Under the pieces are notes generated by a model. It had not been told where the DNA came from. It saw only the letters and a list, made by a program, of their open reading frames with translations, and made no database searches. Source: a virus. Taken from it: 64,000 nt of DNA. A program made the position numbers and the translations under genes. Below are positions 13,635-56,309 of this stretch, piece after piece; position 1 is the stretch's first letter, and every line of letters starts with the position of its first letter. The stretch is taken from the IMG/VR virus record IMGVR_UViG_3300013212_000097, positions 1-64,000 of that record, one strand, 5' to 3'.

Positions 13635-13684
13635 ACAATCTAGTATAAGAAGAAGACATTGAATATCTCAAAATGGAGTGTAGA

Positions 13685-14761
13685 ATGTCTTCTTTTTTAT
13701 TTGATCTGGTTAGCAAAGCAAAACAACTTGATATTGAAGGCAATTATGTCGAAGCTGACAGAGTGTATGAGAATCTTAAGAAAATTGCTAACACTGAAAA
13801 CCATTTTGATTCTCGTGTTGTAATTAGTCAATCTAATATTAATCAAATGGAAAGATTTGAATGGTTGACACAGCCTGGTTCTGCTGATTATATTGCGGGT
13901 ACAGAATTGGTTAGTCGAGATAAATCGTTTAATCAAGATCCTACTAATGCAAAACATCAAGCATTAAATTATGTTAATGCTATCGTAAATTCATTAAGCA
14001 GAATTTTGGATATGAATATTGCATATAAATCAAATGGAAAGGATAAAAAACATGGTTTTAATTTGACTCCAGATGTAAAGAAAAAACTTGAAGAAGCTCG
14101 AAAAGAATATAGAAAATGTAAAGAATTACTTGAAAAAGTACAAATTGGAGCTAATAGAGATAATTTTAATATACCTGATAGATTCGCTGAAGGTCAAATA
14201 AATATCAGTTCTATAGACCAAAATCAACATGTTTCTGCAATCTTTACAGTAGGAACAGCTATAAGAAATTTGCTTAGAGGTTTACTTGAAGGTGCTGTCC
14301 AAGATGCTTTGAAACAACTTACATTTTCAGAAGTAGCACTCAAACAAGCAATAGAGCCAAGTTTGAAATTGCCTCCAGATTATGAAGCTGCAAAAGAAAA
14401 TGCTCAAAATGCTTTCGGACATAGTGATGCTGCAGGAAGTGTAAATCCTGCTGGTTATAAAGAGCCTAGTTCATGGAAAGAAAAAAGAATGCCTGATTCA
14501 CCACCTGATATTTTTGGTGCAACAGTTGGTGGGAGCAAGGCAGCTATTAATTCAGGTTTTGATAAATTAAATAATACTGATGATTCTCAATTTTTAAACA
14601 TTTATCAAGGTGAAATTGAAACGATTGAAAATGCATTTATTGCCAATGAAGGCAAATTGACAGGGCAAGAAAAAGCAAAATATCAAAGAGAAATGAAGAG
14701 TTTGGAAGATAGATATTACACTCTTCTGTACAAAGACAAAGAAAAACCATTCGTAGATTAG
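13685..14761 (+). CDS. Hypothetical protein with N-terminal KIA-type helical module
   Basis: A 358-residue protein. GGAG at 13675-13678 is correctly spaced for the ATG at 13685; an ATG at 13673 would overlap that site, so I rejected it. Residues 1-35 (LVSKAKQLDIEGNYVEADRVYENLKKIA) match the two-helix module found in the genes at 19675 and 52.7-56.3 kb. The rest is helical and not recognised. Possibly a virion or assembly protein, given its abundance of Gln, Asn and Ala. Confidence 0.78.
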   Translation: MSSFLFDLVSKAKQLDIEGNYVEADRVYENLKKIANTENHFDSRVVISQSNINQMERFEWLTQPGSADYIAGTELVSRDKSFNQDPTNAKHQALNYVNAIVNSLSRILDMNIAYKSNGKDKKHGFNLTPDVKKKLEEARKEYRKCKELLEKVQIGANRDNFNIPDRFAEGQINISSIDQNQHVSAIFTVGTAIRNLLRGLLEGAVQDALKQLTFSEVALKQAIEPSLKLPPDYEAAKENAQNAFGHSDAAGSVNPAGYKEPSSWKEKRMPDSPPDIFGATVGGSKAAINSGFDKLNNTDDSQFLNIYQGEIETIENAFIANEGKLTGQEKAKYQREMKSLEDRYYTLLYKDKEKPFVD

Positions 14762-34858: not shown

Positions 34859-34885
34859 ATGGGTACAATCTAAATGTAAGAATAT

Positions 34886-34957: not shown

Positions 34958-34969
34958 TCTTACTAATTT

Positions 34970-35043: not shown

Positions 35044-35066
35044 TCCTCTATTTATGGAAAAATACA

Positions 35067-35642: not shown

Positions 35643-35659
35643 TGTGATATAATAAACAT

Positions 35660-35815: not shown

Positions 35816-35817
35816 AT

Positions 35818-35955: not shown

Positions 35956-35958
35956 ACT

Positions 35959-36276: not shown

Positions 36277-36289
36277 AAAGGAAAATATT

Positions 36290-36562
36290 ATGGATGTAAC
36301 TACACAAATATTGACATGGATTCTTGTCCTGCTTATTGCATATGGTTGTGCAGTTTGGGCAAATAGAAAAGGTTATAGTTTTTGGATTTGGTTGTTTGGT
36401 GGAAGTTTACTGGGAGCTGTAACTCTTTTATTCATGCCTAATGTAAATGATTTAGAAGAAGATAAACGAGCCAAGCAAATTAACACTGGAAATACTGCTG
36501 GAATTATATTAGCAGTTGCATCATTTGTTTGGGGATTCGCTCAAGGGGTTTACAAGCCTTAA
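36290..36562 (+). CDS. Small membrane protein with three segments
   Basis: A 90-residue protein with hydrophobic segments at about 6-23, 30-48 and 69-86. The central NRKGYSFWIWLFGGSLLGA pattern is common in small bacterial membrane proteins of unknown role. AAAGGAAAATATT precedes the ATG. A strong terminator follows. Confidence 0.72.
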   Translation: MDVTTQILTWILVLLIAYGCAVWANRKGYSFWIWLFGGSLLGAVTLLFMPNVNDLEEDKRAKQINTGNTAGIILAVASFVWGFAQGVYKP

Positions 36563-36563
36563 C

Positions 36564-36593
36564 AAAAAAGGGGAGATTTTCTCCCCTTTTTTT
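36564..36593. terminator. Bidirectional terminator
   Basis: AAAAAAGGGGAGA/TCTCCCCTTTTTT stem with a short TTT loop between convergent genes. Confidence 0.93.
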
Positions 36594-36999
36594 AATCATC
36601 ACATTCTATATAATATCCATCATCATCTGGAAGAGTTACATTATCTTCTATTTTTGCACTAAAAAAACAATATGACAAGCTTGAGTGAGCAATCAATAGT
36701 TTCATAAATGTTTCATATAAAGAAGAATCTGTGCAATAAGGTGTGTGAAATTGAAGTACTTTGTCATAATTTAAAAGAATAAATTGTTGATTATTAATAC
36801 TCACAATATAAAATTTATTTAGACTTGTATCAACGGAAAATGCTTGAAGTCCTGGAACATTTTTCTTAAGCATTTCCCAATCTACTCCTAGATTGTTTTG
36901 AGCTGGAAAAATACTTCTTCCCCATTCTTTCAATGTGAAGATTTTTTCAATATCATATGAAGATTGTCTTGGTAAATTGTAAATATCTTTTATTTTCAT
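36592..36999 (-). CDS. Hypothetical protein
   Basis: A 135-residue protein, acidic at the C-terminus (DDDGYYIECDD). Start placed at ATG 36999 because GGTATAAT lies just upstream (hexamer ends nine bases before it); the longer frame to 37092 runs through the tRNA-Arg promoter. No family recognised. Confidence 0.65.
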   Translation of the reverse strand: MKIKDIYNLPRQSSYDIEKIFTLKEWGRSIFPAQNNLGVDWEMLKKNVPGLQAFSVDTSLNKFYIVSINNQQFILLNYDKVLQFHTPYCTDSSLYETFMKLLIAHSSLSYCFFSAKIEDNVTLPDDDGYYIECDD

Positions 37000-37026
37000 T
37001 TCACTAATATTATACCTAAGAAGTGT

Positions 37027-37054
37027 TTGACATTGATGAAAAAGTTGGTATAAT
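37027..37054 (+). promoter_or_regulatory. Consensus promoter of tRNA-Arg
   Basis: TTGACA (37027-37032), 16-base spacer ending TTGG, TATAAT (37049-37054). It faces away from the GGTATAAT of the minus-strand gene about 40 bases to the left. Confidence 0.88.
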
Positions 37055-37088
37055 AGTTTTGTAAGTTGAAATGATGGCATTTGAATAT

Positions 37089-37162
37089 GCACCAGTAGCT
37101 CAGTTGGATAGAGTAGCAGGTTTCTACCCTGTTTGTCGGGGGTTCGAATCCCTCCTGGTGTA
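37089..37162 (+). tRNA. tRNA-Arg (UCU)
   Basis: Acceptor GCACCAG/CTGGTGT (G-U first pair), D-arm GCTC/GAGT, anticodon stem GCAGG/CCTGT, loop TTTCTAC with anticodon TCT, normal T-arm. CCA not encoded. It reads AGA, a codon used heavily here. Confidence 0.92.
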
Positions 37163-37167
37163 TTATA

Positions 37168-37223: not shown

Positions 37224-37886
37224 ATGTGGTACAAAAAAGCTAAATTTGATTCTGAAATTGATAATATAAATAAAACAAATGATCCTGATAGTCTCTATGG
37301 AGCAATGACAGGATATATTTTTTCAATCAAGCAAAAAACCTCTGATTTGCAAAAAATATCAGATGCACTTAGAAGTTATAAAAATAAGTTAGTTGTTGAA
37401 GGTAAATTCCCTACACAGGAAATTGAAGATGCCTATGATTCAATTGTTTATAGTGAAAATTTACCCTCAAATGATGAAAAGTCTGAGACTATAAATGACA
37501 CAGGTGATTTAAATTTTAAAAAACCACTTGAAGGTGAAATCACTTCAAATTTTGGACCTAGAGATGCTCCTATGGAAGGTGCATCTAAAAACCATCAAGG
37601 TCTTGATATTGATGGAGAAGAAGGCGATTATGTTGTAGCTTCTGAAAGTGGCACAGTTACGCATGCTGGTCCTAAAGGTAGCTATGGCAATTTGGTGATT
37701 ATTGATCATGGTGGCGGTTATGAAACTTATTATGCACACTTGAGTAATGTTGATGTTCGTGTTGATGAAGAAGTGATGCAAGATAGAGTAATTGGAAAAG
37801 TAGGGAAAACAGGACGTGCTACAGGTTCACATCTACATTTTGAACTGCGAAAAAATGGAACACCCATTTCTCCACCTTTCAGCTAA
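37224..37886 (+). CDS. MWY-tagged M23 peptidase
   Basis: A 220-residue protein. After MWYKKA and about 100 helical residues comes a complete LytM/M23 domain: H124 and D128 in NHQGLDID, AH at 171-172, and HLH at 203-205 in GSHLHFEL. M23 enzymes cut peptidoglycan cross-bridges. No signal peptide is seen, so it would act from the virion or after lysis begins. First of ten genes with the MWY opening. Confidence 0.92.
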   Translation: MWYKKAKFDSEIDNINKTNDPDSLYGAMTGYIFSIKQKTSDLQKISDALRSYKNKLVVEGKFPTQEIEDAYDSIVYSENLPSNDEKSETINDTGDLNFKKPLEGEITSNFGPRDAPMEGASKNHQGLDIDGEEGDYVVASESGTVTHAGPKGSYGNLVIIDHGGGYETYYAHLSNVDVRVDEEVMQDRVIGKVGKTGRATGSHLHFELRKNGTPISPPFS

Positions 37887-37893
37887 TACAATA

Positions 37894-37916
37894 CCCCCTC
37901 TTGCAGGGGGTTTTTT
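37894..37916 (+). terminator. Intrinsic terminator
   Basis: CCCCCT/(G)CAGGGGG stem with a short loop followed by six T. Confidence 0.88.
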
Positions 37917-37940
37917 CTTTTAAAATAGAATAATTGACTT

Positions 37941-38441
37941 ATGTGGTATAAATTTGCATCTCAGAGCTTAAATTTTGATAACGATCCAATAATTACAAGA
38001 ATTGAGAAAATTAGTAATGAGATTGCTAGTGCTGCTCAATCAGTGTATGACAGCTGGGATCCAAATAATTACAATTCTGAAGAAGAATATAGACATGCCT
38101 GGGGTGTTGGTGGAATTTGTAACGATATAGCTCAGAAAATAGCTGAGGTTGTTAATAAAGAATTTCCAGAATTTACAGTTCTCACTCAAAATTCAGAAGG
38201 CGAACATTGTAATCATGAATTTGTTCAACTTGTTATAACTTCCAATGAAGCGTTTGATTTTCCAGTTGATAGCGATGAAGAAGAGATTGTTGATGTGTAT
38301 GACATTGATATACCTTATTCATGTTATGAAATATGTAATAGTTATTATGAATTTACACGAATCAAAGATGTCAAACTTTCAGGTGATAGTGTCAGTATTC
38401 ATAAACATAGACAATATTTAGCAGATATAAGAGAGTATTAA
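37941..38441 (+). CDS. MWY-tagged protein with possible Cys-His-Asp triad
   Basis: A 166-residue protein opening MWYKFA. GGICNDIAQKIAEVV (Cys near 61), CNHEFVQLV (His near 92) and VYDIDIPYSCYE (Asp near 117-119) fall in the order and setting of transglutaminase-like or papain-like folds. Family membership is tentative. It is followed after one base by another MWY gene. Confidence 0.62.
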   Translation: MWYKFASQSLNFDNDPIITRIEKISNEIASAAQSVYDSWDPNNYNSEEEYRHAWGVGGICNDIAQKIAEVVNKEFPEFTVLTQNSEGEHCNHEFVQLVITSNEAFDFPVDSDEEEIVDVYDIDIPYSCYEICNSYYEFTRIKDVKLSGDSVSIHKHRQYLADIREY

Positions 38442-38442
38442 G

Positions 38443-38952
38443 ATGTGGTATAGAATTGTTTTAGCAACATTTGGAATTCACCCTAAAGAAAAAGAAGCTG
38501 TTGAATTTTATGGAGTCACTGACAATCCACAACTTGCTGGTTATATCTTGAGTGATGGAAGATTTCTTGATTATTCTGAGGGAGGATATGAAAGATCTTT
38601 AGACCACAGAAATATTGAAAATATAATGGACGACCCCGAAGAATCCAAGGGCAGTAGATACAGTGATTACGTAGAACCATTCATGAAAATGACAGGAGCT
38701 ATAAGAGCGTCAAATTATGGCTGTTGGGATTTAGATATTTTCACCCCACCAACAGCTGAACAAATGAGAACTATAGTAAGCCATCATAATAAGGTATTTG
38801 ACCGTCGTAATATGGATGGCGATGGCTATTTCCCAGATTTTCATATAAAGGTTGACCCATTAGGGATTAAAGAAACAATACCTAATGCAACAAAAGAAGC
38901 TGTAAGCAATAAGTTATTATCTATAAGGAACCAATTGCTAAATGTGGTATAG
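38443..38952 (+). CDS. MWY-tagged hypothetical protein
   Basis: A 169-residue protein opening MWYRIV. YILSDGRFLDYSEGGYERSL with DHRNI (about 36-65) is a pattern I have seen in large-phage proteins of unknown function. Its stop codon lies inside the first codons of the next MWY gene (12-base overlap, ATGTGGTATAG). Confidence 0.7.
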   Translation: MWYRIVLATFGIHPKEKEAVEFYGVTDNPQLAGYILSDGRFLDYSEGGYERSLDHRNIENIMDDPEESKGSRYSDYVEPFMKMTGAIRASNYGCWDLDIFTPPTAEQMRTIVSHHNKVFDRRNMDGDGYFPDFHIKVDPLGIKETIPNATKEAVSNKLLSIRNQLLNVV

Positions 38953-39269
38953 AATTTCTCAATCTTTGTTTAATCAAACTTCTGAAATTAATGAAGAATG
39001 GTTGCAAAGACATCAAGTTCAAAAAGAGGGTGATAAATATGTTTTTTATCATGGCTCTAGAATTGATTTTAATGTATTCATTATTAGCCACCACACCTGA
39101 AGAAGCAACAGACTTTGGCGACACTAATTTTTTCAATGATAGAAGAAAATCTCTTATAATTTACAAAGTATTAGTTTCTCCTGAAGAAATAGTTCCTGGA
39201 TATTGGGCATCATTAATTAACAATCATCCTGTAAGTGTTTTATATAAAATTAAAAAGAAAGTAAAATAA
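38941..39269 (+). pseudogene. MWY-tagged gene with a probable frameshift
   Basis: From ATG 38941 the frame reads MWYRISQSLF and, near residue 40, YVFYHGSRIDF, an ADP-ribosyltransferase-like opening, then stops at TGA near 39110. Another frame continues from about 39070 (ATTPEEATDFGDTNFF onward) to 39269. The two parts make sense only joined. A T6 run at 39042-39047 lies before the switch. I see no canonical slippery site, so decay or a read error is more likely than programmed shifting. Confidence 0.55.
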
Positions 39270-39270
39270 A

Positions 39271-41091
39271 ATGTGGTACAAACTTGCGCAAAATGTAGAG
39301 AGAGCTTACGAAACACTTAAAACTAAAGGTGTAAGCGAAGACACAATTAACAAACTTCAACAATTAACTGATATTCCCCTCAGAGGTAAATATATTGGCG
39401 CATTGATGCAAAACCCATCTATGCCTTGGAATGAGTTAGAAGAAAAATTTAGTCCTAAACAAGAAATGAAAGTGTCAATCCAAGAAATCAGATACTTGTT
39501 TGATTTGAAAAGAATGCTCTCAGGTTCTTATTTGCCCGAAGAACCAAAAGCTAATTTTTATAGGTGGGTAGACAGAGTAGCTTTGCCTTCATATAGACCC
39601 AATCAGCATAATCCAGAAAATTACACTTATCCAAAATTTTCACAAATGCCAAATCCTATATATAGTATTCAAAGAGAATTAGATCATGTATATGATTGGT
39701 ATTGTGAATATATGGATGAAAATCCAAGATTCAACATTTTTTCTATGTCTCTTGATAATGCATTACAAGCAAGCGATGAATGGCATGAAGAACTTGCTAA
39801 TCAAACAACTGGAAGTAAATTTACAAAAATTAAGAAACAAAATGGGAAGATTGTTGACCCCAATGTTGTAATGGTGTTTGATGAAGACACAATCAACTCA
39901 CTTGGATTATCAAAAGAATATGTTGATTGGATGATTGTAAAACTTACAGTTGAAACTGATTTCCGGTTAGAAGCTGGCATTATGGGTCACTGTTTAGGAA
40001 CAAATAGATACTTTGATAAGTATGAAAAGGGTGGTTGTGAGATCTACTCATTAAGAGATGAATCAAATCAACCTCACACAACTATTGAAATTATACCACC
40101 TGACACTGTTGAACAAATACAGGGAAAAGGCGATAGAACACCAAAGTCTGATTATTTAAAATTAGTCCAACATTGGGTAATTGCAAACAACTTCTATTCA
40201 TCAAGCAAAGAACATGATCCTTATTTAGATTTTAGAACAGGTATGGGCGAAGAAAGAGCACTTGAAGCTATTTTTGAATATAGGAATCCATATCATGATG
40301 AAGATGCAGTAGATCTTTTAGGCGTTCCAATCAGACCACCATCAATAAATGACGAAGATTTCTTAAGTGAATTCAACTTGGATCATTTTATTGATCAAGT
40401 TGGAGTTAATAATAATGGTCACTACAAAACTTATCAAGAAATTCCTGATGATGATAAATTTGATGAGTTGGTAAATTTTTTAGGCAATTTATATATTGAA
40501 CACGACATCAAGTTATTAAGAGAATATGCAAGTCAAACACGTCCTTTAGGAACTGAAAGAAAGGCAGTCGTAGATAAACTTAAAACTATATATGTTAGAG
40601 ATAATTTCGAATATGCATTGTCAAAAGAATTGGATTTTGTTAAAGATTATAGAGATGTTAAAGTTGATGATGAATTTGGTGCTGCAAAAGAAACGAATTT
40701 TACTAACAAAAGCCCTGATGAAATTAACCAGATAGCTCAACAACCTTTTATGAGAAAAGATGCAAGGGGTTATGGTGAATTACGTGAATATGACGGAGTT
40801 TACGATGTATATCCAGTTCATTTCTATAATGCTTTGTATGATTATATCCGAAAAAATTTACCAAGAGAATTTTTTGATTTAGCTAATAAACTTTCTTTGG
40901 GATTAGATTTGCCGAATATCACTTCAGATTATATAATTGAAAGAGAAAAACAATATATGGGTTCTTTGGGTAGAGGAGGCAGAAGAGGCAGACAATTAGC
41001 TTTATTTGACACTGAACTTAACATTCCAGATGAAGAAAAAGAATGGATTTATGCTTTCAATAATAAAAGACACAGATTGGCGAGAAAGTAA
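39271..41091 (+). CDS. MWY-tagged PcfJ-like protein A
   Basis: A 606-residue protein opening MWYKLAQN. The middle (MGHCLGTN, then EIYSLRDESNQPHTTIEI and QIQGKGDR, about 237-290) matches the PcfJ-like pattern of plasmid and phage proteins: H-C, YSLRD, TIE, QxxGK. A QLALF sequence near residue 573 fits the sliding-clamp-binding consensus. It is a tandem paralog of the next gene, identical over the first 30 bases and several bases before the ATG. Function unknown. Confidence 0.82.
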   Translation: MWYKLAQNVERAYETLKTKGVSEDTINKLQQLTDIPLRGKYIGALMQNPSMPWNELEEKFSPKQEMKVSIQEIRYLFDLKRMLSGSYLPEEPKANFYRWVDRVALPSYRPNQHNPENYTYPKFSQMPNPIYSIQRELDHVYDWYCEYMDENPRFNIFSMSLDNALQASDEWHEELANQTTGSKFTKIKKQNGKIVDPNVVMVFDEDTINSLGLSKEYVDWMIVKLTVETDFRLEAGIMGHCLGTNRYFDKYEKGGCEIYSLRDESNQPHTTIEIIPPDTVEQIQGKGDRTPKSDYLKLVQHWVIANNFYSSSKEHDPYLDFRTGMGEERALEAIFEYRNPYHDEDAVDLLGVPIRPPSINDEDFLSEFNLDHFIDQVGVNNNGHYKTYQEIPDDDKFDELVNFLGNLYIEHDIKLLREYASQTRPLGTERKAVVDKLKTIYVRDNFEYALSKELDFVKDYRDVKVDDEFGAAKETNFTNKSPDEINQIAQQPFMRKDARGYGELREYDGVYDVYPVHFYNALYDYIRKNLPREFFDLANKLSLGLDLPNITSDYIIEREKQYMGSLGRGGRRGRQLALFDTELNIPDEEKEWIYAFNNKRHRLARK

Positions 41092-41097
41092 AATAAA

Positions 41098-43311
41098 ATG
41101 TGGTACAAACTTGCGCAAAATGCAGAAAAAGCTTTTGAAACACTTAAAACAAAAGGTGTGAGCCAAGAAAATATTTCCAAGCTTGAAGAGATGACAGATC
41201 TTGCTTTGAGAGGAAAATATATTGGAGCATTAATGCAAAACCCATTAATGCCTTGGAATCAATTGGAAGAAAAATTCACTACTAAAAAAACCAATAATCT
41301 TTCAGTTCAAGAAATGAGATTACTTGGTGAAATAGATACTTTAGTTACAAATTCTAATCTTCCAGAAGATCAACAAGCTAATTTTTATAAATGGGTAGAT
41401 AGAGTAGCAATTCCTTCCTATAGACCAAATCAATTTGATCCAGAAAAGTATATTTATCCTAAGTTTTCTGGTGCATACAATCCAGTGTTTGAAATAGAAA
41501 GAGAAATTAATCATATTTTTGACTGGTATGTTAATCATATTGATCAAAACCCCAGATTTAATATTTTCTCAATGTCTCTTGATAATGCATTGCAAGCAAG
41601 CGACAGATGGCACGAAGAACTTGCAAATCAAACATCTACAAGAACTTTCTCTAAGATAAAGAAAGAAAATGGACAGATTGTAGATCCTAATGTAGTAAAA
41701 GTTTTTGATAGAGATACTCTTGAAAAAATTGGATTACCTGAAAAATATCAAGGCTGGATGATTGTAAAACTTACTGAAGAAAATGATTTTGAGATAGAGG
41801 CAGATATTATGGGTCACTGCCTAGCAACAAATAATTACTTTTATCAATATGAAAAAGGCTATATTGAAATCTACTCTTTGCGTGATGAATCTAATCAACC
41901 ACATGTAACAATTGAAATTGTTTTGCCAGACAAAGTTAAGCAAATACAAGGCAAAGGTGAAAAAAGACCAAAAGATGATTACTTGAAATTAGTTCAACAA
42001 TGGATATATCAAGGAAATTATTATTCAAATGATAGTAGTCATGATCATGAATTGCATTTTAGAACAGGTTTTGATGAAAACAGTGCATTAGAATCTATAC
42101 AAGAATATTTAAATCCATATTTTGATGAAGAATCAACTGACGATTTAGGTGTCCCTTTAAGACCGATTACTGTAGATGAAGATGAATTTGTTGAAGAATT
42201 TGATATTGACTATTTGATAGATAAAATAGGACAAAAAAGTGGTGGATATTATAATGATCCAGAATTTTACAAATCATCTGAAGAAATTAATTATGATGCA
42301 TTTGAAGAATTAATTTCTTTTATTGGAGAAATGTTCATTCACCACGATATTAATTACTTAAAAGAATATGCAAAAGAAACTCGTCCATTAGGTATTAATC
42401 AAAAAGAAATCAAAGCTAAGCTTAAAATCGAAGTTGTTAAGGATCACTTAATGACTTATATTAATGAAGAATTAGAGCAGATTACTTACCCACAAAGTAG
42501 AAAATTCAGAGAAGAAGATTTAGGTCCTGCAAGATCTTTTAACTTTAAAGATAAAAATCCAGGAGAAATAGACGAAATAGCAATGTCGTCATATCGTAGA
42601 GAACCTAAACGTGGTAGAGCTAAATTTGATGAAGATGGTGAAAGAATACTTAAACAATATAATGGAATCTACGATGTATATTCAGTTTACTTTGCAGATG
42701 AGTTGTATGAGTATATGTTAAAAAATCTTCCATCTGAGTTTTATGGATTAGCTAATAAAATCGGATTGAATTTAGATTTATCACCTGTTACCCCAAGTTC
42801 TGTTGTGGAATTTAACAATGAATACAGAGACTTCTACCAAGGAAGAAATAGACAGTTAGAATTATTTGATTCTAACTCTAATGTATCTCCCGAAAAATGG
42901 ATTTATGCCTTTAATCATAAAAAGTTTAGATTAGCAACATTACAAGACGAGGGACTGTCTGATTTTGGCTACAATGATTTATTCAAACCTTCTAAAGATA
43001 TATCTAACAAACAAATATTAGAAAATATCAAAGATTTTTATATTAGCAAGTGCTTGCAAACAATTAAATCTGAAGGACCTGATCCTGATTATGTTGGCAA
43101 TTATTTTGCAGACATAACTGAAGAACTGCATTTAATGTGGGAAGAATATATAGACGACATAAAAAAAGGCGATATTACTTCTTTGAAGAATGTTATTGAA
43201 ATTGCTTTAAGCTACGAATCAACACTTTCCAAAGACTCAAATGAATATGAAAAATTGTCTGAAATGATTTCATCAGGCAACATAGCAGTAGTGATAAAGA
43301 GAGATTTATAA
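41098..43311 (+). CDS. MWY-tagged PcfJ-like protein B
   Basis: A 737-residue paralog of the preceding gene, alike from MWYKLAQNAEK to the KWIYAFNHKKFRLA segment near residue 615, then extended by about 120 acidic residues. PcfJ-like motifs: MGHCLATN, EIYSLRDESNQPHVTIEI and QIQGKGEK. QLELF near 585 matches the clamp-binding consensus. Joined to the next gene by TAATG. Confidence 0.82.
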   Translation: MWYKLAQNAEKAFETLKTKGVSQENISKLEEMTDLALRGKYIGALMQNPLMPWNQLEEKFTTKKTNNLSVQEMRLLGEIDTLVTNSNLPEDQQANFYKWVDRVAIPSYRPNQFDPEKYIYPKFSGAYNPVFEIEREINHIFDWYVNHIDQNPRFNIFSMSLDNALQASDRWHEELANQTSTRTFSKIKKENGQIVDPNVVKVFDRDTLEKIGLPEKYQGWMIVKLTEENDFEIEADIMGHCLATNNYFYQYEKGYIEIYSLRDESNQPHVTIEIVLPDKVKQIQGKGEKRPKDDYLKLVQQWIYQGNYYSNDSSHDHELHFRTGFDENSALESIQEYLNPYFDEESTDDLGVPLRPITVDEDEFVEEFDIDYLIDKIGQKSGGYYNDPEFYKSSEEINYDAFEELISFIGEMFIHHDINYLKEYAKETRPLGINQKEIKAKLKIEVVKDHLMTYINEELEQITYPQSRKFREEDLGPARSFNFKDKNPGEIDEIAMSSYRREPKRGRAKFDEDGERILKQYNGIYDVYSVYFADELYEYMLKNLPSEFYGLANKIGLNLDLSPVTPSSVVEFNNEYRDFYQGRNRQLELFDSNSNVSPEKWIYAFNHKKFRLATLQDEGLSDFGYNDLFKPSKDISNKQILENIKDFYISKCLQTIKSEGPDPDYVGNYFADITEELHLMWEEYIDDIKKGDITSLKNVIEIALSYESTLSKDSNEYEKLSEMISSGNIAVVIKRDL

Positions 43312-44111
43312 TGTGGTACAAATTAGCTATCACTAAAGTTGATCCTTCTGGTCAAATCAACATGGATTTCTCTGGTAAAAACAACTACCCAGTAAACCCT
43401 GGAGAAAAACCAAAGCCTTTTGATTTGAATAATCTTAAGTTTGAGGTTGTTCAGGAAGATCCAATTGAATATCCAGAAGAATATACTTTGTATGCCTTGT
43501 TAAATGATGGAAGAAAATTAGGTTACATTTATTTTGAAGCTCCTGATAATTCTGATACAGCTGACATAAAATACACATCAATTTACGAATATCCTACATC
43601 TTTAGGCAAAGAAAAATGGGAAAAGCCTGTAAATCCAGAAGATAAAACTAAATCTCAATTTGTTGAAGAATTAAAAAATGCTGGTTACTTAGTTGATGAT
43701 TCTTCAGTTACTAGAACTGATTGGGGTATTGGGAAAACATTGTATCAAGAATTGAAAAAATTTCTTCAGGAAAACAAACCAAACATAAAATTTGTCACTG
43801 GAAAAGTTCATTCCAAAGAAGCATTTTGGGCAAGATATAAAGGACTTGGTTTTCCAGTAGAAGCTTTAGATCCCTATCAATCTTATAATAAAGAAATTAA
43901 TGAAAAACATTCTTATTTGTCTGAAGAAGAAAAACTTAAGATGATCAGAAATATGGCTAATGAATTAGGAAGTTCTTCATTTGATTCAAGTGGACGTTCA
44001 GATGCGCCAAAATGGGAATTTAATGTTAAGAATAAGATTGAAAATTTACCATCTGAAAAAGAAATAAATATTGATTCCGAAAATCTTTCTTTATTCGACG
44101 AGGCAAAGTAA
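43311..44111 (+). CDS. MWY-tagged GNAT-like protein
   Basis: A 266-residue protein opening MWYKLA. RTDWGIGKTLYQELKKFL (about 140-157) resembles the acetyl-CoA-binding R/Q-x-x-G-x-G/A loop and helix of GNAT acetyltransferases, and AFWARYKGLGFP fits the closing element, but an insertion separates the early strands. The C-terminus LSLFDEAK resembles the QLxLF region of the PcfJ-like neighbours. TAATG overlaps on both sides. Confidence 0.68.
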   Translation: MWYKLAITKVDPSGQINMDFSGKNNYPVNPGEKPKPFDLNNLKFEVVQEDPIEYPEEYTLYALLNDGRKLGYIYFEAPDNSDTADIKYTSIYEYPTSLGKEKWEKPVNPEDKTKSQFVEELKNAGYLVDDSSVTRTDWGIGKTLYQELKKFLQENKPNIKFVTGKVHSKEAFWARYKGLGFPVEALDPYQSYNKEINEKHSYLSEEEKLKMIRNMANELGSSSFDSSGRSDAPKWEFNVKNKIENLPSEKEINIDSENLSLFDEAK

Positions 44112-45742
44112 TGTGGTACAGATTTGCAGGTTTACAAGACGAAGTAGAAAAGTTACGCATTCAAGGCATAAATGAACTTATTTTAGCCTTATTTTCGGAT
44201 CCAAAATATGATAATGCGTCTAAAGGTAAAATGCTAGGTGCTATCAAGCAAAATCCAAATATTTCAATAGAAGAATTAAGAAATCTTTCTATGCAAAACA
44301 AACCAACAAAAGGAGAGCAATTTATTTTAGCTCGTTTTGAAAATGAAAGATTCAAAAACTGGTTTTTTCATAAATTGAAAAGTTGGAGAATTCAACCTGC
44401 AAAACCTGATGGAGAATATGATCACAACACTCCAAAAGAAAACCTTGGAGAACATGCAAATTTTACAGAACTAGCTATCCACATGCAAGATTTTGTAAAT
44501 AATATTGAAATTAATGATCCCGATTATAATTTAGGTTTAAGATCTTGGGAGGAAGTAGTTCAAGATACAGATCAATGGGAATCAATGTTGCAAGGTAGAG
44601 GCTCAAGTAAATTTTATAATCCAGCTGACAGAAATGAAATAATGAAATACCCAGATGGCTGGAGTATGGTAGAAGTGATTTCTGAAAATGATTTAGACGT
44701 AGAAGGCGCAAAAATGCACCACTGTGTTGCTGGGTATTGGGAACAAGTAAGAAAAGGCAACACTAATATTTATTCCTTGAGAGACCCTGGAAATCAACCA
44801 CATGTAACAATAGAAGTGGTTGGTGATAAAGTAAAACAAGTCAAAGGGCATAATAATAAAAAAATTACAGAAGATGATTTAGTAGAAAAAATTAAAGAGT
44901 TCTTTGAAAGCCAGGATGATATTGAAAAAGATATCAGACATAATCCAATAGAGGGTCATTTTGAAAATTGGGAAGATGGAATATATTGGACTTATGACCC
45001 AACTGAAATAGATTACAATATTCACAGATCTACATATGGTCCAGAAGAATATGAATTTGATGATCTCGATGATGATGGTCCTGAAGATTTTAACATATTT
45101 GGTATCAATTCACCAGTATTTTCATATAAAAAATTCAGTGAAGGAAATTTATATCAGGCTAGTATGACAGATATTACAACTAATGTTGTAGATTCGATTA
45201 ACAATGGTTTAAGTAAAAACAGAAGCGCATATAATTATGGGGATAGAAAAGAATATACTATCGAAGATTATGATTTAGACGATTACTCTGATAAAATATA
45301 CGAAGGATTAGTGGCTAAAGCTAATTTAGCCTTAACACAACGTCCAATGGCTCATGATTTTGGAAAATATTTGGATGCTAGACATTTTCTTGAAGTGTCT
45401 ACAAAAGAATATGAAAGCATGAAAGAAAAATATCAAGAAGATTCACCTGCTGAAGATTTTGCAACATGGTATCAAAATCAACCTGAATTTTTGTGGTTCA
45501 TTATTGCAGAAAAAATTCAAGAATGGTTTGAAAAGAGTGATTTTGCATTTAAATTCAAAGACATAAGAGGCGAAGAGTTTAAATTGCCTTCTGGATATAA
45601 AAAATGGTGGTATGGCGGAGAAGAATCGGAAAATATCACTCCTTTCATCAATACTAAGGAAATTAGAGAAACAGTGTTAAAAGATGATGAAAAATTTGCA
45701 TCATACAATAATAATAATTACAGAAAAAATTGGGTAAAGTGA
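44111..45742 (+). CDS. MWY-tagged PcfJ-like protein C
   Basis: A 543-residue protein opening MWYRFAG. MHHCVAGY, then IYSLRDPGNQPHVTIEV and QVKGHNNKK (about 200-255), is the best PcfJ-like match in the window. An acidic region follows, then an unrecognised C-terminus. It converges with the minus-strand MWY gene. Confidence 0.82.
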   Translation: MWYRFAGLQDEVEKLRIQGINELILALFSDPKYDNASKGKMLGAIKQNPNISIEELRNLSMQNKPTKGEQFILARFENERFKNWFFHKLKSWRIQPAKPDGEYDHNTPKENLGEHANFTELAIHMQDFVNNIEINDPDYNLGLRSWEEVVQDTDQWESMLQGRGSSKFYNPADRNEIMKYPDGWSMVEVISENDLDVEGAKMHHCVAGYWEQVRKGNTNIYSLRDPGNQPHVTIEVVGDKVKQVKGHNNKKITEDDLVEKIKEFFESQDDIEKDIRHNPIEGHFENWEDGIYWTYDPTEIDYNIHRSTYGPEEYEFDDLDDDGPEDFNIFGINSPVFSYKKFSEGNLYQASMTDITTNVVDSINNGLSKNRSAYNYGDRKEYTIEDYDLDDYSDKIYEGLVAKANLALTQRPMAHDFGKYLDARHFLEVSTKEYESMKEKYQEDSPAEDFATWYQNQPEFLWFIIAEKIQEWFEKSDFAFKFKDIRGEEFKLPSGYKKWWYGGEESENITPFINTKEIRETVLKDDEKFASYNNNNYRKNWVK

Positions 45743-45746
45743 TAAA

Positions 45747-48089
45747 TTAATATTCGTTATCATCAAAATCCATAAACATCATGTATTTTTCTTCAATATA
45801 ATCTTGTACTGGTTCGCCTAATAATCTTCTGCTAAATTCTTCTTTAATGTCTCTAAATTGCGCCATAGTAACTGTTGAATTAATTCCAAGATCATCAGCT
45901 TCCATATTGTGAAATTTATCAGCAGGTCTCATACTTAAGAGTTGCATTGCTTTTTGTCTTGTTATTGTGGCATTAGGATCAACTGGCAATGCTGGCGCTG
46001 GCTGAATCTTTCTTTGAACAGGATAAAGTCCAGGGAATCTCTTTTTCAAAACTGCCTGTAAGTTTTCGTTAGCAATTGCTTTTAGAACTTGTGTCTTGTT
46101 ATCTCTGGCATAAGCATATGCATCAGGATTGCTAGCTATAGCATTTTTTTGATCTTCAGATGCATCTTGAGCAAATTCAATTGTGAATTTGTCAGATTTG
46201 ATAAGCATATGAACGAATGTTTCTTCATTCATCAAACTAGCAGGTATTTCCAGTATTGAGTTTACATTCTCAATAATAATCTCAAATACTCCTTCAAGAC
46301 CTAATTCTCCAGAAGCATCTATAACTTCTCTAGGTAAATCATTAATGACATATGATTCTGATAAAAGACCTTGAGCATACAATTGAAAAGCTATGTTGAA
46401 ATCATAACTATCATAAGGATCATCTGACATTGCAGCAACAACTGTACCAAACTGATTGATTCTTTCATTTTCTTCTATGTCAGATCCATAGTTATAAACA
46501 TTGAATTCATCATCAGTATTGTATTTACCACCTAATACTTTTACTGATATAAGATTGTTCTTGATACATTCAAAAACAAAATCAGGTGTCAACACTTCTT
46601 TCGTGAGATATAAAGGCTTTTCTATTTTGTATTCATTTGACAATATAGATTCTTGCACTTTTTGTATTGCTTCCTGAATATCAATTTTGCCTATGATAGC
46701 CTTTTCAAAGAAATCTAAATCCATTTCTTGTTTTGCAAAAGCATCAATAATACTATCAGTGTCAAATAAAGATTGGAATTTTTCTCTTGCAATTTCACTG
46801 AAAGATGGCATAAGATTTTGAAGTTCATCTATACTAAATAATTCAAAAAATCTATAATCAAAAGTAAAGTCTGAAGTGAATATTTTCTCTGAAATAAACT
46901 TTTTGGCATATTCTTTCATCTCTGGATTAATATCAAAATTAGAAATGCCAAGTCTTGGAAAATTGCCAACAAAACTTTGAATATATCTTCCCAGCACTGT
47001 GTAAACTTTGTATTTTACAATCTCATCAAAATCTTCTTGGTTAAAACCTGAACTTACAGAGCCTAATAGTTTATTTCTAATTCTATTTTTATTTAATGCA
47101 GGGTCTTTTTTAATAACTGCTACTATTTCAGCTGGTAAATATGTATTTGATGAAATAAGATTTAATAAATCACCAAATACATTTTTTCTTTCGTACATGA
47201 ACATAAATTGTGCAAATGTAAGATCATGCATTCTAAGAACGTATGCTTCTTTGTCACTGTACGAGAGATCCATAAACCAAGATAAACTTTTGTTTTGCTT
47301 TGAAAATCTTCTTTTGTTATCATCTTCTTCTGGTGACAATGGTCTAGGAGCAAAATCTTCTTTTTTAATTTCGCCACCAGAAACATCACTCAAATATTGG
47401 AAATAACCATCAATACTTTTTCCATAATTTTTACCATTGACAACTAAATTAGCCATCAATTTATCACCAGTCTCATTTATTTCATCAGTGATTTGAATGC
47501 CTGCTGGTCTTACGTCAATTGCAACTTTTCTAAATGGATAACTTCTATTAGGATCTTCAACTATGTAAAAATTACTAGATTCATCGTATCTGTATTTTAA
47601 GAACATTCCAGTGGAACGATCACCAATACACCATGATGTGCCTACACAAGTTTTTTCAGATTCATCATAAGTTTTTGGATTGAATATTTTGATTTTTTCA
47701 TTAGTTATGACAGGCTCCAAATCTTGAGTGGCTGCCATATCTTTTTTAGGTTTTAATTGAGAATCTAAATAATCTACATGTTCAACAATAGCCTCAAAAT
47801 CATCAAAATCAACTTCATCAAAAGCAGATTTTATTTCAAGAGAATTTTTTGAAACTTTTGTGGTAATAACATTTTTTTGTTTTAAATTAAATAATTTTTC
47901 AGATAAATGTGAAAGAGCTAAAGTTGTTTCAATAGAATCTCTGTTATCTGCAACAATATAACAATATGCAAGTTCTAATTGAATGTTGGTTGGCGCATTT
48001 TCAATTACTTCTGGAACAGGCAAAGGAGAAAGAAATTTTTGAATTTGAGCAGAGGCAGATACGATTATTTTTGAAAACTTATACCACAT
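45747..48089 (-). CDS. MWY-tagged large protein with PcfJ-like WC motif
   Basis: A 780-residue protein opening MWYKFS, the only MWY gene on this strand. TCVGTSWCIGDRST (about 147-160) followed by FYIVED and KVAIDV resembles the Cys-centred motif of PcfJ-like phage proteins in a diverged form. The long C-terminal part is helical and repetitive (spaced aspartate-rich helices). Role unknown; the tag on both strands argues against simple read-in from a shared leader. Confidence 0.75.
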   Translation of the reverse strand: MWYKFSKIIVSASAQIQKFLSPLPVPEVIENAPTNIQLELAYCYIVADNRDSIETTLALSHLSEKLFNLKQKNVITTKVSKNSLEIKSAFDEVDFDDFEAIVEHVDYLDSQLKPKKDMAATQDLEPVITNEKIKIFNPKTYDESEKTCVGTSWCIGDRSTGMFLKYRYDESSNFYIVEDPNRSYPFRKVAIDVRPAGIQITDEINETGDKLMANLVVNGKNYGKSIDGYFQYLSDVSGGEIKKEDFAPRPLSPEEDDNKRRFSKQNKSLSWFMDLSYSDKEAYVLRMHDLTFAQFMFMYERKNVFGDLLNLISSNTYLPAEIVAVIKKDPALNKNRIRNKLLGSVSSGFNQEDFDEIVKYKVYTVLGRYIQSFVGNFPRLGISNFDINPEMKEYAKKFISEKIFTSDFTFDYRFFELFSIDELQNLMPSFSEIAREKFQSLFDTDSIIDAFAKQEMDLDFFEKAIIGKIDIQEAIQKVQESILSNEYKIEKPLYLTKEVLTPDFVFECIKNNLISVKVLGGKYNTDDEFNVYNYGSDIEENERINQFGTVVAAMSDDPYDSYDFNIAFQLYAQGLLSESYVINDLPREVIDASGELGLEGVFEIIIENVNSILEIPASLMNEETFVHMLIKSDKFTIEFAQDASEDQKNAIASNPDAYAYARDNKTQVLKAIANENLQAVLKKRFPGLYPVQRKIQPAPALPVDPNATITRQKAMQLLSMRPADKFHNMEADDLGINSTVTMAQFRDIKEEFSRRLLGEPVQDYIEEKYMMFMDFDDNEY

Positions 48090-48097
48090 GATATGTT

Positions 48098-48466
48098 TTA
48101 TTCTACAGGTTCATAGGAAATTCTTACCAAAGGATCTCCTGATATATACAAATATCTTACATGAACATTTTCAATATATCTTGATGTATCATCTGGAAAT
48201 ATTTCAGCTCTCACTAAAAGATCAATTAATGGCTTGGCTAAATTATCAATATCATTTTTTTGTCTCCATAAATGATTAGCCATCACAAGCAATTCAACAT
48301 TTACTGGAAACTGTTTAGCAGGCAACATATCCTGGATTACAACTGGGAGATTTTTGTCAATCCATGCATTATATTTTCTAGATTTCACCATTTTTCCACG
48401 AGCAATTGGAACATACATTTGATTTGCAGAAAAAGGTTTATTTACAATGCACGATGTCTTTTGCAT
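48098..48466 (-). CDS. RusA-like Holliday junction resolvase (second copy)
   Basis: A 122-residue RusA protein with the signature NDIDNLAKPLIDLLVRAEIF and PDD (the Asp triad of the active site), and a preceding basic strand region. Start chosen at ATG 48466, six bases after a TATAAA; the frame opens further up at TTG 48481 and ATG 48469. It is the clearer of the two RusA-like genes in the window. Confidence 0.88.
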   Translation of the reverse strand: MQKTSCIVNKPFSANQMYVPIARGKMVKSRKYNAWIDKNLPVVIQDMLPAKQFPVNVELLVMANHLWRQKNDIDNLAKPLIDLLVRAEIFPDDTSRYIENVHVRYLYISGDPLVRISYEPVE

Positions 48467-48517
48467 CATGAATTTATACAAGTCAAATGCAGAATTTATT
48501 TTTCTTGAAAAAAAAGA

Positions 48518-48523
48518 TATAAT
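48518..48523 (+). promoter_or_regulatory. -10 element of a leaderless gene
   Basis: TATAAT ending five bases before the ATG at 48529; divergent to the RusA-like promoter. Confidence 0.62.
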
Positions 48524-48528
48524 AGATT

Positions 48529-48897
48529 ATGCAAGACAAAAGTTATTGGTTATTTTATGTTTTTGTAGAATGTATGATTTACAACAATAGATCATTTTGC
48601 GAAGATGATTTCAAAGCATTATTAGATTCTCAAAGATTAAGTCAAATAAAAATGAACTTCAATGATGAAGTTAAAGACTTTGTAGATGAATGTAAAATAT
48701 TAGATGATATAGATTATGAACTTAACAAAAACAATTACTGGATGCCAAAAAATAACATTATAAATCACGACTATAATTTGAAAACTATTATTCAAGATTT
48801 GCGACTGGATTTAGAGTTAGAACATGCAAATAATGATTTTTATGATTCTTCTTGCGATATAGTGCAAAAAATAAACAACTATTTACATTTTCTATAA
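48529..48897 (+). CDS. Hypothetical protein
   Basis: A 122-residue acidic protein with an aromatic N-terminus (YWLFYVFVECMIY) and helical remainder. No family recognised. Leaderless by the position of its TATAAT; ends at a strong terminator. Confidence 0.68.
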   Translation: MQDKSYWLFYVFVECMIYNNRSFCEDDFKALLDSQRLSQIKMNFNDEVKDFVDECKILDDIDYELNKNNYWMPKNNIINHDYNLKTIIQDLRLDLELEHANNDFYDSSCDIVQKINNYLHFL

Positions 48898-48926
48898 ACC
48901 CTTGAATAAAGGGTTTTTCTTTTTAA
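48896..48926 (+). terminator. Intrinsic terminator
   Basis: AAACCCTT/AAGGGTTT stem followed by a T-rich tail. Confidence 0.88.
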
Positions 48927-48944
48927 CATGCAAAAAATATATGT

Positions 48945-49691
48945 ATGTGGTACAGAACAGTTATAGCTCAAATATCTGATGTTGATCAATTTAATTTAGA
49001 TGCTGAGAAATATAATAAAATGCTTGAGGAAAAAGCAAAAAAAACTCAACCTAAAAAAACAACAAAACCTGTAATAAAACCTGTCACTAAACCAGAATTA
49101 ACAACTGAACCTATAAGCCCAAAACCCAAACCTGTAGCGCCAAAACCAATTGCGCCAACCTCTAATCCTTCAAAACCAAACAACTTCAAAAATATAATAA
49201 ATAACTTAGTAGAACTTGAAGGCGGAAAATCCAATTTATCTTATGATAAAGGCGGTAAAACAAATTTAGGTATCACACAATATACCTATAACAATTGGAA
49301 TAAAAAACACAATAAACCACTTAAAGATGTTTATAAGATAACAAGACAAGAAGCAGATCAAATTTACAAAGAAGAATATTGGAACATTATAAAAGGTGAC
49401 CAACTACCACCAAATGTTGCGCACATTATGCTTTCACAAGCTCTTCTTGATGGTCCACAAGATTCAATAAGACTTGTACAAAAATTATTAGGTTTAAAAG
49501 TGGATGGAATTATGGGTTCTGACACTTTAAACAAAATAAAAAGACTCACTGTCAACGGAGACATAAAACTAGCCAAAGCAATAGCAAATAAACAAATTTA
49601 TAGACTAAAAACTGATGAAGATGCTGATAAATTTGGTAAAGGCTGGAATAATAGAGTTCAAAAAGTAATGAAAAAATTTAAAGGAAAATAA
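48945..49691 (+). CDS. MWY-tagged endolysin, GH108-type with peptidoglycan-binding domain
   Basis: A 248-residue protein opening MWYRTV. A Pro/Lys-rich linker (about 30-78) is followed by the GH108 catalytic region: LEGG with Glu92, DKGGKTNLGI, then a Tyr/Glu-rich helix. The C-terminal half (GLKVDGIMGSDTLNKI) is a PG-binding-3-type domain. It should cleave glycan strands at lysis or entry. No signal peptide is seen. Last of the MWY genes in order. Confidence 0.9.
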   Translation: MWYRTVIAQISDVDQFNLDAEKYNKMLEEKAKKTQPKKTTKPVIKPVTKPELTTEPISPKPKPVAPKPIAPTSNPSKPNNFKNIINNLVELEGGKSNLSYDKGGKTNLGITQYTYNNWNKKHNKPLKDVYKITRQEADQIYKEEYWNIIKGDQLPPNVAHIMLSQALLDGPQDSIRLVQKLLGLKVDGIMGSDTLNKIKRLTVNGDIKLAKAIANKQIYRLKTDEDADKFGKGWNNRVQKVMKKFKGK

Positions 49692-52720: not shown

Positions 52721-53290
52721 ATGAATATAAACATTTTAGTGAAAATAGCGCAAACCTTAGATCAACAAAAAAAATATAAATTAGTTGACAAAATTACTAC
52801 AGCCATGATGCAAAAAGAAAGTATGATTTTCTTACTCAAAGTAATAGAAGATGCCTTTAACTTTAATGCATTAGTAAAAGCACTAAATAATTTTTATGAT
52901 CAAAGAGATTTAAATTACCTTATAAGTGAAAATGGATTAAGAACATATAAAAAATTGCCCACTGATTATCAAACATCTGAAGTATTGTGGAATCACACCC
53001 TTGAAGATTTAGAAAATTTATACAAACCAATAAAATCTCTAAATGAAAAAGTGACAATATCTGGCACTTATCTTAACAATGCACCAATAAAAATGGATGG
53101 CGAATCTCTCAACTACTATGAAATAAAAGAAAAACTTTTAGCCCTATGCACCGAAATTGAAAATTTCCACTCATCGTTATTCGAAGCACATCAGAAAATG
53201 AAAAAACCACTAAGCGATTTAGAAGAACAATTGACCCGAAATACAATCGAAGAGATGGAAAATTCTAACGATCCAATACCAGAGGAATAA
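52721..53290 (+). CDS. Protein with KIA-type helical module
   Basis: A 189-residue helical, acidic protein. Residues 1-33 (LVKIAQTLDQQKKYKLVDKITTAMM) match the two-helix module shared across this cluster. The rest is not recognised. It is the first of a rightward cluster of similar genes. Confidence 0.72.
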   Translation: MNINILVKIAQTLDQQKKYKLVDKITTAMMQKESMIFLLKVIEDAFNFNALVKALNNFYDQRDLNYLISENGLRTYKKLPTDYQTSEVLWNHTLEDLENLYKPIKSLNEKVTISGTYLNNAPIKMDGESLNYYEIKEKLLALCTEIENFHSSLFEAHQKMKKPLSDLEEQLTRNTIEEMENSNDPIPEE

Positions 53291-53902: not shown

Positions 53903-54820
53903 ATGGATAACAGACAAATAATATCATCTCTCAATGAACTCGCTAATGAACTTGATCAATGCGGTCAATACAAATTTAGTGAAGAGATTGACAATTTAAT
54001 AAGAATAGCTATATTACATGGTCATGGACCTAAATTAAGATATAACCATCCAGCGGTAGGTGACCTCAAAAGAAAAGAGCTAGAACCACTACCGCCACAA
54101 AATTTAATAGAAAAAGTATTTCAAGAATTCGCTGGATATGGAAAACCATTACCAAAATCATTTTATGATTTTTTAAATCCATTAGAATGGAATATTGATG
54201 ATTTTCTTGATGATGTCCTACAATATTATAAAGAAGATAATACTATAAGTATGGATTTTATTAAACTTATTACATCTTCTTCCGAATTTGTAAAAAAATT
54301 AGACTTAAATCTGAAAAATAGAAACAAAATACCTGTGTTTGAGCCTGTTTATACTTTTCAGGAAAAACCAGAAGTTTTCAAAAAAATTCTACAAGAGGGT
54401 GAAAACGAACTTATAAAATCATTGGAAAAAGAATTCAAAAAATTAAAAGAATTAATTGTTTATAATCCAAACACTAGAATAAATAAAGTGGTACCTGCTC
54501 TGCTAGAAATTAGAGAATTATTACCACCTAAATTCTTAGCATATGTAGAAGCTGTAAATGAATGGTTAGATTATCAAAATAATGCTGAAAATGAAATGTT
54601 TGAAAAACAAGACATGCTTCATGATAACTTTAGATCAGAAGCCCGCGCTAGAGAAGAATTAGAGAATCGTCTAAATCCAAAAGAAGAAGAAGAAAAATGG
54701 TCAGTGCTTTCAAAATACACAATCAATAAACTTTACAAAATAGCCAACTCATTAGATGAAGCTAATCTTTATAAACAAGCTAGCTCAGTTACTAATCTTA
54801 TGAAAAGAATAGCAAAATAA
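53903..54820 (+). CDS. Protein with KIA-type modules at both ends
   Basis: A 305-residue helical protein. Both ends carry the module: IISSLNELANELDQCGQYKF at the N-terminus and INKLYKIANSLDEANLYKQASS with VTNLMKRIA at the C-terminus. The middle contains PPQNLIEKVFQEFAGYGKPLP and is not recognised. Two copies in one protein show that the module is a separable unit. Confidence 0.75.
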   Translation: MDNRQIISSLNELANELDQCGQYKFSEEIDNLIRIAILHGHGPKLRYNHPAVGDLKRKELEPLPPQNLIEKVFQEFAGYGKPLPKSFYDFLNPLEWNIDDFLDDVLQYYKEDNTISMDFIKLITSSSEFVKKLDLNLKNRNKIPVFEPVYTFQEKPEVFKKILQEGENELIKSLEKEFKKLKELIVYNPNTRINKVVPALLEIRELLPPKFLAYVEAVNEWLDYQNNAENEMFEKQDMLHDNFRSEARAREELENRLNPKEEEEKWSVLSKYTINKLYKIANSLDEANLYKQASSVTNLMKRIAK

Positions 54821-54877: not shown

Positions 54878-55324
54878 ATGAATAAAAGACAAATTATATC
54901 TTCTTTGAACAAGATAGCAAATGAACTCGACTCAGCATCATTGTTCGTAGAAGCAAACACTGTTACCAAAGTGATGACAAAAATTGCTCAAGCACCAAGC
55001 GATTTTACAGGCGATTTTACCTCCAAATATGATTCTAAAGAAATAGGAAGAAATATTGTCAAAAGCTTATCAGAATTAATTATCAAAAAGCTACAAGGTA
55101 AAGAAGAAGCAAGACAATATTTTAGTGGTGGTAATTTACAATCATTTGTATTAGATATTTTAGATAAATCTATTGAAGATTATAAAGAAGCTATGCAACA
55201 AATGGAATTAATGCTTGAGAAATATCAAACAGGTTTTAATGAACCTGATTATAAAATACTCAATGGTCTAATAAATAATTGGAAAAGTTATAAAAATGCA
55301 CAAAGTAGGGAGATGGGATTATGA
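54878..55324 (+). CDS. Protein with KIA-type helical module
   Basis: A 148-residue protein opening IISSLNKIANELDSASLFVEA with VTKVMTKIA: the clearest example of the module, nearly identical in the next gene. The remainder is helical and unrecognised. Its stop overlaps the next ATG in ATGA. Confidence 0.75.
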   Translation: MNKRQIISSLNKIANELDSASLFVEANTVTKVMTKIAQAPSDFTGDFTSKYDSKEIGRNIVKSLSELIIKKLQGKEEARQYFSGGNLQSFVLDILDKSIEDYKEAMQQMELMLEKYQTGFNEPDYKILNGLINNWKSYKNAQSREMGL

Positions 55325-55820: not shown

Positions 55821-56309
55821 ATGAATAAAAGACAAATTATAGCATCACTTGCAAATGTAGCTGAAAGCTTTGAAAACAGCCATGAAATTCTTTTAGCTAA
55901 TGAAATTAATCTCTTAATGACTAAGTTAGCAGAAAAAGAAGAAGACTGCCCAGAAGCAACACAAAACGTCAAACTAAACCTTAAAAATAGACAAAAAGGT
56001 ATTGATGAACAAGGTTATGGACCAGCAGACCCTTCACAACCTAATGACAAATTCTGGAAAAAGAAAATGGAAATGTGGAAAGTAGATGAGCTGTCAGAAG
56101 TGAAGAACATGCTTTGTGGAAACTGTGCTGCATTTGATATCACTTCAAAAACATTGGACTGTATAGAAAAAGGCATAGGAGAAGAAGCCACAGAAACCAT
56201 AAACGCTGGAAAACTTGGCTACTGTAAATTTCTCAAATTCAAATGCGCATCCAAAAGAACTTGCGATGCTTGGGTGACAGGCGGACCAATCACTGACAAA
56301 AAGAAATAA
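55821..56309 (+). CDS. KIA-type module fused to a conserved Cys-rich phage protein
   Basis: A 162-residue protein. The N-terminal 40 residues carry the module (IIASLANVAESFENSHEILLA). The rest matches a protein I recall from T4-like and cyanophages: NVKLNLKNRQKGIDEQGYG, PNDKFW, MLCGNCAAFD, LGYC and TCDAWVTGGPI, with cysteines that probably bind metal. In relatives this domain stands alone, so the module has been added. Confidence 0.82.
   Translation: MNKRQIIASLANVAESFENSHEILLANEINLLMTKLAEKEEDCPEATQNVKLNLKNRQKGIDEQGYGPADPSQPNDKFWKKKMEMWKVDELSEVKNMLCGNCAAFDITSKTLDCIEKGIGEEATETINAGKLGYCKFLKFKCASKRTCDAWVTGGPITDKKK

Follow-up and report, generated by a model that had tools for sequence, protein, structure and literature searches.

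A short N-terminal MWY[KR] tag on unrelated proteins of uncultured jumbo phages and its probable role in loading the phage head

The capsid targeting sequence of bacteriophage T4, carried by IPI-III and Alt, occupies about ten N-terminal residues of unrelated cargo proteins. Ten residues are enough for targeting and are followed by cleavage, and the residues that serve targeting differ from those that serve processing (PMC9026906). In the polyvalent proteins two to fifteen domains are joined in one polypeptide, and the ART-PolyVal and InPase versions found in them are described as packaged and injected (Iyer et al. 2017, PMC5512222). In the jumbo phages phiKZ and SPN3US, propeptides of 20-254 residues, each specific to its family, are removed from head cargo by the head protease, with cleavage after Glu (PMC10052503). 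The present analysis concerns a window of 64 kb (the whole stretch of DNA that was analysed) out of the 65.9-kb virus record IMGVR_UViG_3300013212_000097, with a G+C content of 32%, in which ten genes begin with Met-Trp-Tyr-Lys/Arg. The comparison set consisted of 14 related records (~2.5 Mb), several of which are jumbo phages of 300-379 kb. As judged from sequence comparison, the extended form of this start, MWY[KR]-x-[A/S]-(Q), probably serves a lineage of jumbo phages as a short N-terminal tag for capsid loading, like the T4 sequence in its working. To our knowledge the two peptides have no sequence similarity.

MWY was the commonest first tripeptide among the 2,755 open reading frames (ORFs) of the window's record and its 14 relatives, which were called by length and overlap and not by a gene finder. 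It opened 104 of them, followed in frequency by MNK and MKK, so that about one gene in 25 is tagged in this group of giant uncultured phages, with up to about 15 tagged genes per genome. In the proteins of the same 15 records Trp-Tyr followed 14 of 13,999 internal Met residues, giving an N-terminal enrichment of ~38-fold over this background. At the internal rate the probability of ten starts in the ~100 ORFs of the window is ~1.6e-17, and that of 104 starts in the lineage ~6e-123. The 12-base pattern occurred 97 times against 4 for a reversed control in 29 records, each picked for holding at least one, and M-W-Y-K-x-A-Q was found in 37 stretches of the whole viral collection against 2 for a control with W and Y swapped. 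These three controls exclude a chance origin, and the excess over background in related phages agrees with the view of the initial annotation that the starts form a tag. A bacterial origin was also rejected, as 257 Gb of bacterial genomes gave 23 matches, about as many as chance predicts, and those inspected were internal to genes or out of frame with them. No MWY start was present among 492 ORFs in the first 400 kb of Bacillus phage G, nor in Tunturi_5, a cultured phage with a related capsid protein. The motif was not found as a tag in the literature, where text matches to 'MWYK' were unrelated by title.

Clustering of 113 tagged proteins, with their first eight residues removed beforehand, gave 50 unrelated body clusters, which rules out a gene family that arose by duplication along its whole length. 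Within the window only the PcfJ-like proteins at 39271, 41098 and 44111 were paralogous, leaving eight unrelated families in all. The initial annotation had described ten genes with unrelated domains; its M23, GH108 and PcfJ calls hold by Pfam and its GNAT call at 43311 is backed by the fold, but three of the ten are thus related to one another. All ten starts that it listed were present, each as ATG-TGG-TAY-[Lys/Arg] and one on the opposite strand as described, and nine of them open intact ORFs. The tenth sits at 38942 and not at 38941, and its frame breaks after 52 residues, the remainder of the protein running on in another frame (38991-39269). This break may reflect either a faulty assembly or a true pseudogene; an intact version of 112 aa is held by a relative (L001/G001). 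Just upstream of the tagged array, at 33569-37163, are tRNA genes for five amino acids, Met, Glu, Gln, Thr and Arg, with one gene for each.

The cargo identified across the lineage comprised M23, GH108, PcfJ, ART-PolyVal (2e-11), InPase (1e-44), GNAT, NUDIX+HAD, SprT-like zincin, poly(A)/CCA-type polymerase+HD, helix-turn-helix (HTH), AAA_33 kinase and DnaJ proteins. Most tagged proteins carry one recognised domain, the exceptions being NUDIX+HAD and CCA-type+HD. Several of these domains have homologues in larger proteins of other phages. The tagged stand-alone ART has one homologue in the C-terminal part of Tunturi_5 gp321, a protein of 1,362 aa with SprT-like, 2'-5' ligase-like, ART-PolyVal and GNAT domains whose gene is flanked by a head-tail connector gene and a minor tail gene. 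A second homologue is a 1,479-aa Mx1 protein (GNAT, ART-PolyVal, NUDIX) whose gene lies six genes downstream of that for the major capsid protein (MCP), and the NUDIX domain of this Mx1 protein is matched by the tagged NUDIX. The tagged GNAT matches the end of Tunturi_5 gp273, the tagged InPase matches gp272 (adjoining gp273 and a minor head protein by annotation) and the tagged M23 matches a domain inside the phage G tape-measure protein. MWY did not precede the domain in any fused version among the alignments examined.

The logo built from 86 non-redundant starts was M W Y [R39/K35] x [A56/S12] [Q32], with Glu uncommon at position 7 and nothing conserved past it. Structure models of two window proteins were made from lineage alignments. 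In the 38443 model residues 1-3 had a predicted local distance difference test (pLDDT) score below 50, and in the 43311 model residues 1-9 were unstructured at the same level, with most of both bodies at 70-90; a fold search with the 38443 model gave no match. Pfam domains start close behind the tag, at residue 12 in the AAA_33 kinase and residue 18 in the NUDIX protein. The codons of the tag varied across relatives, with both TAT and TAC for Tyr, all four Ala codons, AAA and AAG for Lys, AGA, AGG and CGA for Arg, and variation for Gln too, and orthologues with a GTG start (in one possible case a TTG start) still encode WY[KR]. The codon variety and the GTG-started copies indicate that selection acts on the peptide and not on the DNA, as the initial annotation had proposed from the two Tyr codons. 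Together with the absence of any shared upstream motif beyond A-richness they rule out a DNA-level element or promoter. A stability or translation signal, such as an N-degron or a start-codon context controlling the dose or timing of a class of proteins, would suit the position of the tag at the extreme N-terminus and the classic role of Trp and Tyr in destabilising bacterial proteins. The codons vary freely, the upstream sequence shares nothing but A-richness, conservation reaches Ala6 and Gln7, and a second, helical tag described below lacks Trp-Tyr, making such a signal highly improbable. Still more doubtful is a recombination handle or frozen ancestry, in which a conserved gene start would serve the swapping of cargo and the peptide would have no role. 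MWY genes do cluster (37 adjacent pairs, 5 expected) in variable arrays, but synonymous positions vary, tagged genes also stand singly and on both strands, and GTG starts keep WY[KR].

The head module of the related genome G026 was identified by PHROGs (MCP, head-maturation protease, portal and large terminase), the protease being the N-terminus of a 1,379-aa protein. A module in T4 order (portal, protease, acidic scaffold-like protein, MCP) was present in nine genomes, and in all nine the immediate neighbour of the portal gene was tagged, by MWY in eight and by GTG-WY in G004, and a helical-tag gene lay within the same head cluster. When a tripeptide-class scan was run genome by genome over ~300 reduced classes, [KR][ILVMTF]A showed the strongest enrichment of all in proteins of the head module in 5/5 genomes (z 7.2-9.7), and the residues behind it were enriched in Q and S. 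The form [KR][ILVT]A[QS] occurred 118 times in head proteins against 11.3 expected (10.5-fold), compared to a ratio of 1.7 in other proteins. When all proteins were ranked by [KR][TILVFM]A content, the top places went to products of core genes, the protease fusion and the acidic scaffold-like protein among them. Since the tag ends in [KR]-x-A-(Q/S) like the head-assembly proteins, this end may be a site of the maturation protease, and we consider it the likely cleavage site. Cargo bodies contained 5 copies of the candidate cleavage motif where 5.1 were expected, against the 1.7-fold of other proteins, a depletion that is suggestive only. The protease domain gave no match in a sequence search of solved structures.

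Three further observations concern these genes. The head-maturation protease forms the N-terminal 250 residues of a protein of 1,379-1,451 aa with many [KR]-x-A motifs (L064:3855-7994, G026, and homologues), the rest of which may be a scaffold cut up at maturation. The G026 portal (L064:8118-10499) is unusual in being fused at its C-terminus to a restriction-endonuclease-like domain (MTES_1575/DUF559). An MWYRLAQ-tagged protein resembling the product of the portal-adjacent gene was present in a GC-rich contig (L233, 3300044997_001296, 56% G+C), suggesting that the tag is not bound to low G+C.

A tagged gene beside the portal could also mean that proteins are marked for the virion without use of the head interior, for example by binding to the portal, neck, tail tube or baseplate, with the tag left uncut. 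Enzymes of the M23 and GH108 types are often associated with tails, and an M23 domain lies inside the phage G tape measure. We regard this reading as unlikely, because core genes, those for the protease and the scaffold-like protein included, have [KR]-x-A in common with the tag, with a concentration of the motif in the G026 head module, and because the cargo is too large and diverse for parts of a tail tip. A localisation signal within the infected cell, for the membrane, the replication compartment or a phage nucleus, would agree with a short N-terminal peptide of hydrophobic Trp-Tyr and a basic residue in jumbo-phage genomes. This is very unlikely, since replication proteins conserved in nine genomes are without the tag, and neither the presence in the head module nor the swap with a helix of 25-40 residues fits it. 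Phage tubulin is found in some nucleus-forming phages, without strictly defining them; no tubulin-family gene (PF00091) was present in six records, in which fragments are possible, while the control gave a signal in 13/14 genomes. The portal-adjacent tagged gene, the [KR]-x-A motif common with head proteins and the homology of cargo to virion-associated proteins favour capsid targeting over the other readings. The initial annotation had left packaging, membrane contact and a common partner side by side, 'like a capsid-targeting sequence', and it is this last comparison that is now best supported.

The second tag is a predicted helix of 25-40 residues with the same [KR]-x-A motif and no Trp-Tyr. 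A hidden Markov model (HMM) of such N-termini (MNKRQIIASLNKIANELD...TKIAQ, for example) matched 102 proteins, none of which was MWY-tagged, and matched no reversed or internal stretch; [KR]-x-A lay inside the first 60 residues in 93 of the 102. In four families (two by HMM, two by eye) MWY and a helical-type N-terminus stood in for each other in different members. The G002 homologue of the GH108 lysozyme at 48945 has a helical-type N-terminus in place of MWY. The clearest swap was MWYRKAQ/DMSVPFY against LLRIASKLDSLEQYKLADKFLKLAQ/DMSVPYY, in bodies that are 73% identical, with the junctions KAQ/DMSVP and LAQ/DMSVP at the slash. A tblastn search of cultured phages with the helical tag found none, and the first 400 kb of phage G held no convincing example.

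Capsid loading by these tags would proceed in steps. At prohead assembly the MWY tag would bring separately made proteins into the core, the head-maturation protease would then probably cut at the [KR]-x-A-(Q/S) end, and the freed enzymes would leave the head together with the DNA, their targets in the host being the cell wall, transcription, translation and signalling. The helical tag would do an equal job for other cargo, and domains strung together in the polyvalent virion proteins of other phages would here travel singly, every protein bearing a tag of its own. The wider proposal, that MWY[KR]xAQ and an interchangeable helical tag form a two-tag head-loading system, both with a new protease site, that loads and injects dozens of exchangeable single-domain effectors, is evenly balanced between acceptance and doubt.

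In common with T4 there is a short tag on unrelated cargo (here 50 clusters), the gene order portal-protease-scaffold-MCP, a short motif common to cargo and core proteins (here a candidate cleavage site) and an ADP-ribosyltransferase in the cargo (PMC9026906, PMC5512222). The gp21 consensus of T4 is L/I-x-E, however, and the present phages have [KR]-x-A-[QS], a cargo of 50 families on up to about 15 genes per genome and a second interchangeable tag. With the polyvalent proteins (PMC5512222) they have in common the effector domains ART-PolyVal, InPase, GNAT, zincins and NUDIX, with homologues in virion-associated genes of Tunturi_5 and Mx1, but most of the proteins here are tagged and single-domain. 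Like phiKZ and SPN3US they are jumbo phages, and a preference for Ser at P1' is likewise seen in the SPN3US site logo (PMC10052503), as with the Q/S behind the motif here; unlike those phages they have one seven-residue tag on unrelated proteins, and their head module resembles those of phage G and cluster C-type mycobacteriophages. Phage G has the closest cultured MCP (47.5% identity) and a weak [KR]-x-A excess in its head proteins (rank 4 of 226), and differs in that its first 400 kb show no MWY start and no convincing helical tag.

Several points weigh against capsid loading. The lineage is uncultured and known here from its genes. Ala is absent at position 6 in about a third of the tags, and in many of them K, E or R takes the place of a hydrophobic residue at position 5. 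In the more distant record G009 none of the eight MWY genes lies beside the portal. The motif classes were named after the N-termini of head proteins had been seen, and the scan of all classes then ranked the motif first. Adjacency of MWY and helical-tag genes is not above chance (11 against 9.5 expected), and CCA-adding-like enzyme, DnaJ and HTH cargo is untypical of injected effectors.

Table 1. Tagged genes of the window, with their N-termini and supporting matches.
Feature	Position	Strand	N-terminus	Length	Match or remark
M23 peptidase	37224..37886	+	MWYKKA-	220 aa	Pfam M23 2e-33
Homologous to part of tagged GNAT-containing proteins of relatives	37941..38441	+	MWYKFA-	166 aa	
Protein with MWY[KR]xAQ in relatives	38443..38952	+	MWYRIV-	169 aa	W2, Y3 invariant
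Small YHGS-type protein, ADP-ribosyltransferase-like by eye	38942..39269	+	MWYRIS-		Frame broken past residue 52
PcfJ-like protein	39271..41091	+	MWYKLAQ-	606 aa	Cluster 0; weak PHROG 7484 match
PcfJ protein	41098..43311	+	MWYKLAQ-	737 aa	Pfam PcfJ 8e-7
GNAT-fold protein	43311..44111	+	MWYKLA-	266 aa	Fold match, best E 1.7e-4 to GCN5
PcfJ protein	44111..45742	+	MWYRFA-	543 aa	Pfam PcfJ 3e-12
Protein	45747..48089	-	MWYKFS-	780 aa	Cluster 17
GH108 lysozyme	48945..49691	+	MWYRTVIAQ-		Pfam GH108 6e-21
Helical-tag gene, weakest match	13673..14761	+			HMM E 4e-4
Helical-tag gene	52721..53290	+	MNINILVKIAQTLDQQKKY...		HMM E 1e-8
Helical-tag gene	53903..54820	+	MDNRQIISSLNELANELD...LIRIA		HMM E 7e-11
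Helical-tag gene	54878..55324	+	MNKRQIISSLNKIANELD...TKIAQ		HMM E 2e-22
Helical-tag gene	55821..56309	+	MNKRQIIASLANVAES...TKLAE		HMM E 1e-9

Other genes were noted in the window and its relatives. A phage-encoded DUF1559/N_methyl pseudopilin (51288-52256, minus strand) is present in eight of the records; pseudopilins of this type occur in Armatimonadota and Planctomycetota-like bacteria, and the gene may point to the host. An 892-aa protein with a signal-peptide-like start (26876-29554, minus strand), conserved in five records, gave only a weak match of the rhamnogalacturonan-lyase type. The jumbo phages encode proteins that are DnaK-like, DnaJ-like and type II topoisomerase-like by sequence appearance (G026 299365-313392; L076, L077).

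If capsid loading by the MWY tag is correct, a seven-residue peptide would be usable for loading proteins into phage heads, and capsid-targeting tags would have arisen outside the T4 group with a different sequence and cleavage motif. It would explain the splitting of polyvalent virion proteins into separate parts, the tagged proteins being their unlinked counterpart. The injected effector set of a whole uncultured group of giant phages would then be readable from gene starts, giving a list of about 50 families so far, most of them without known function.

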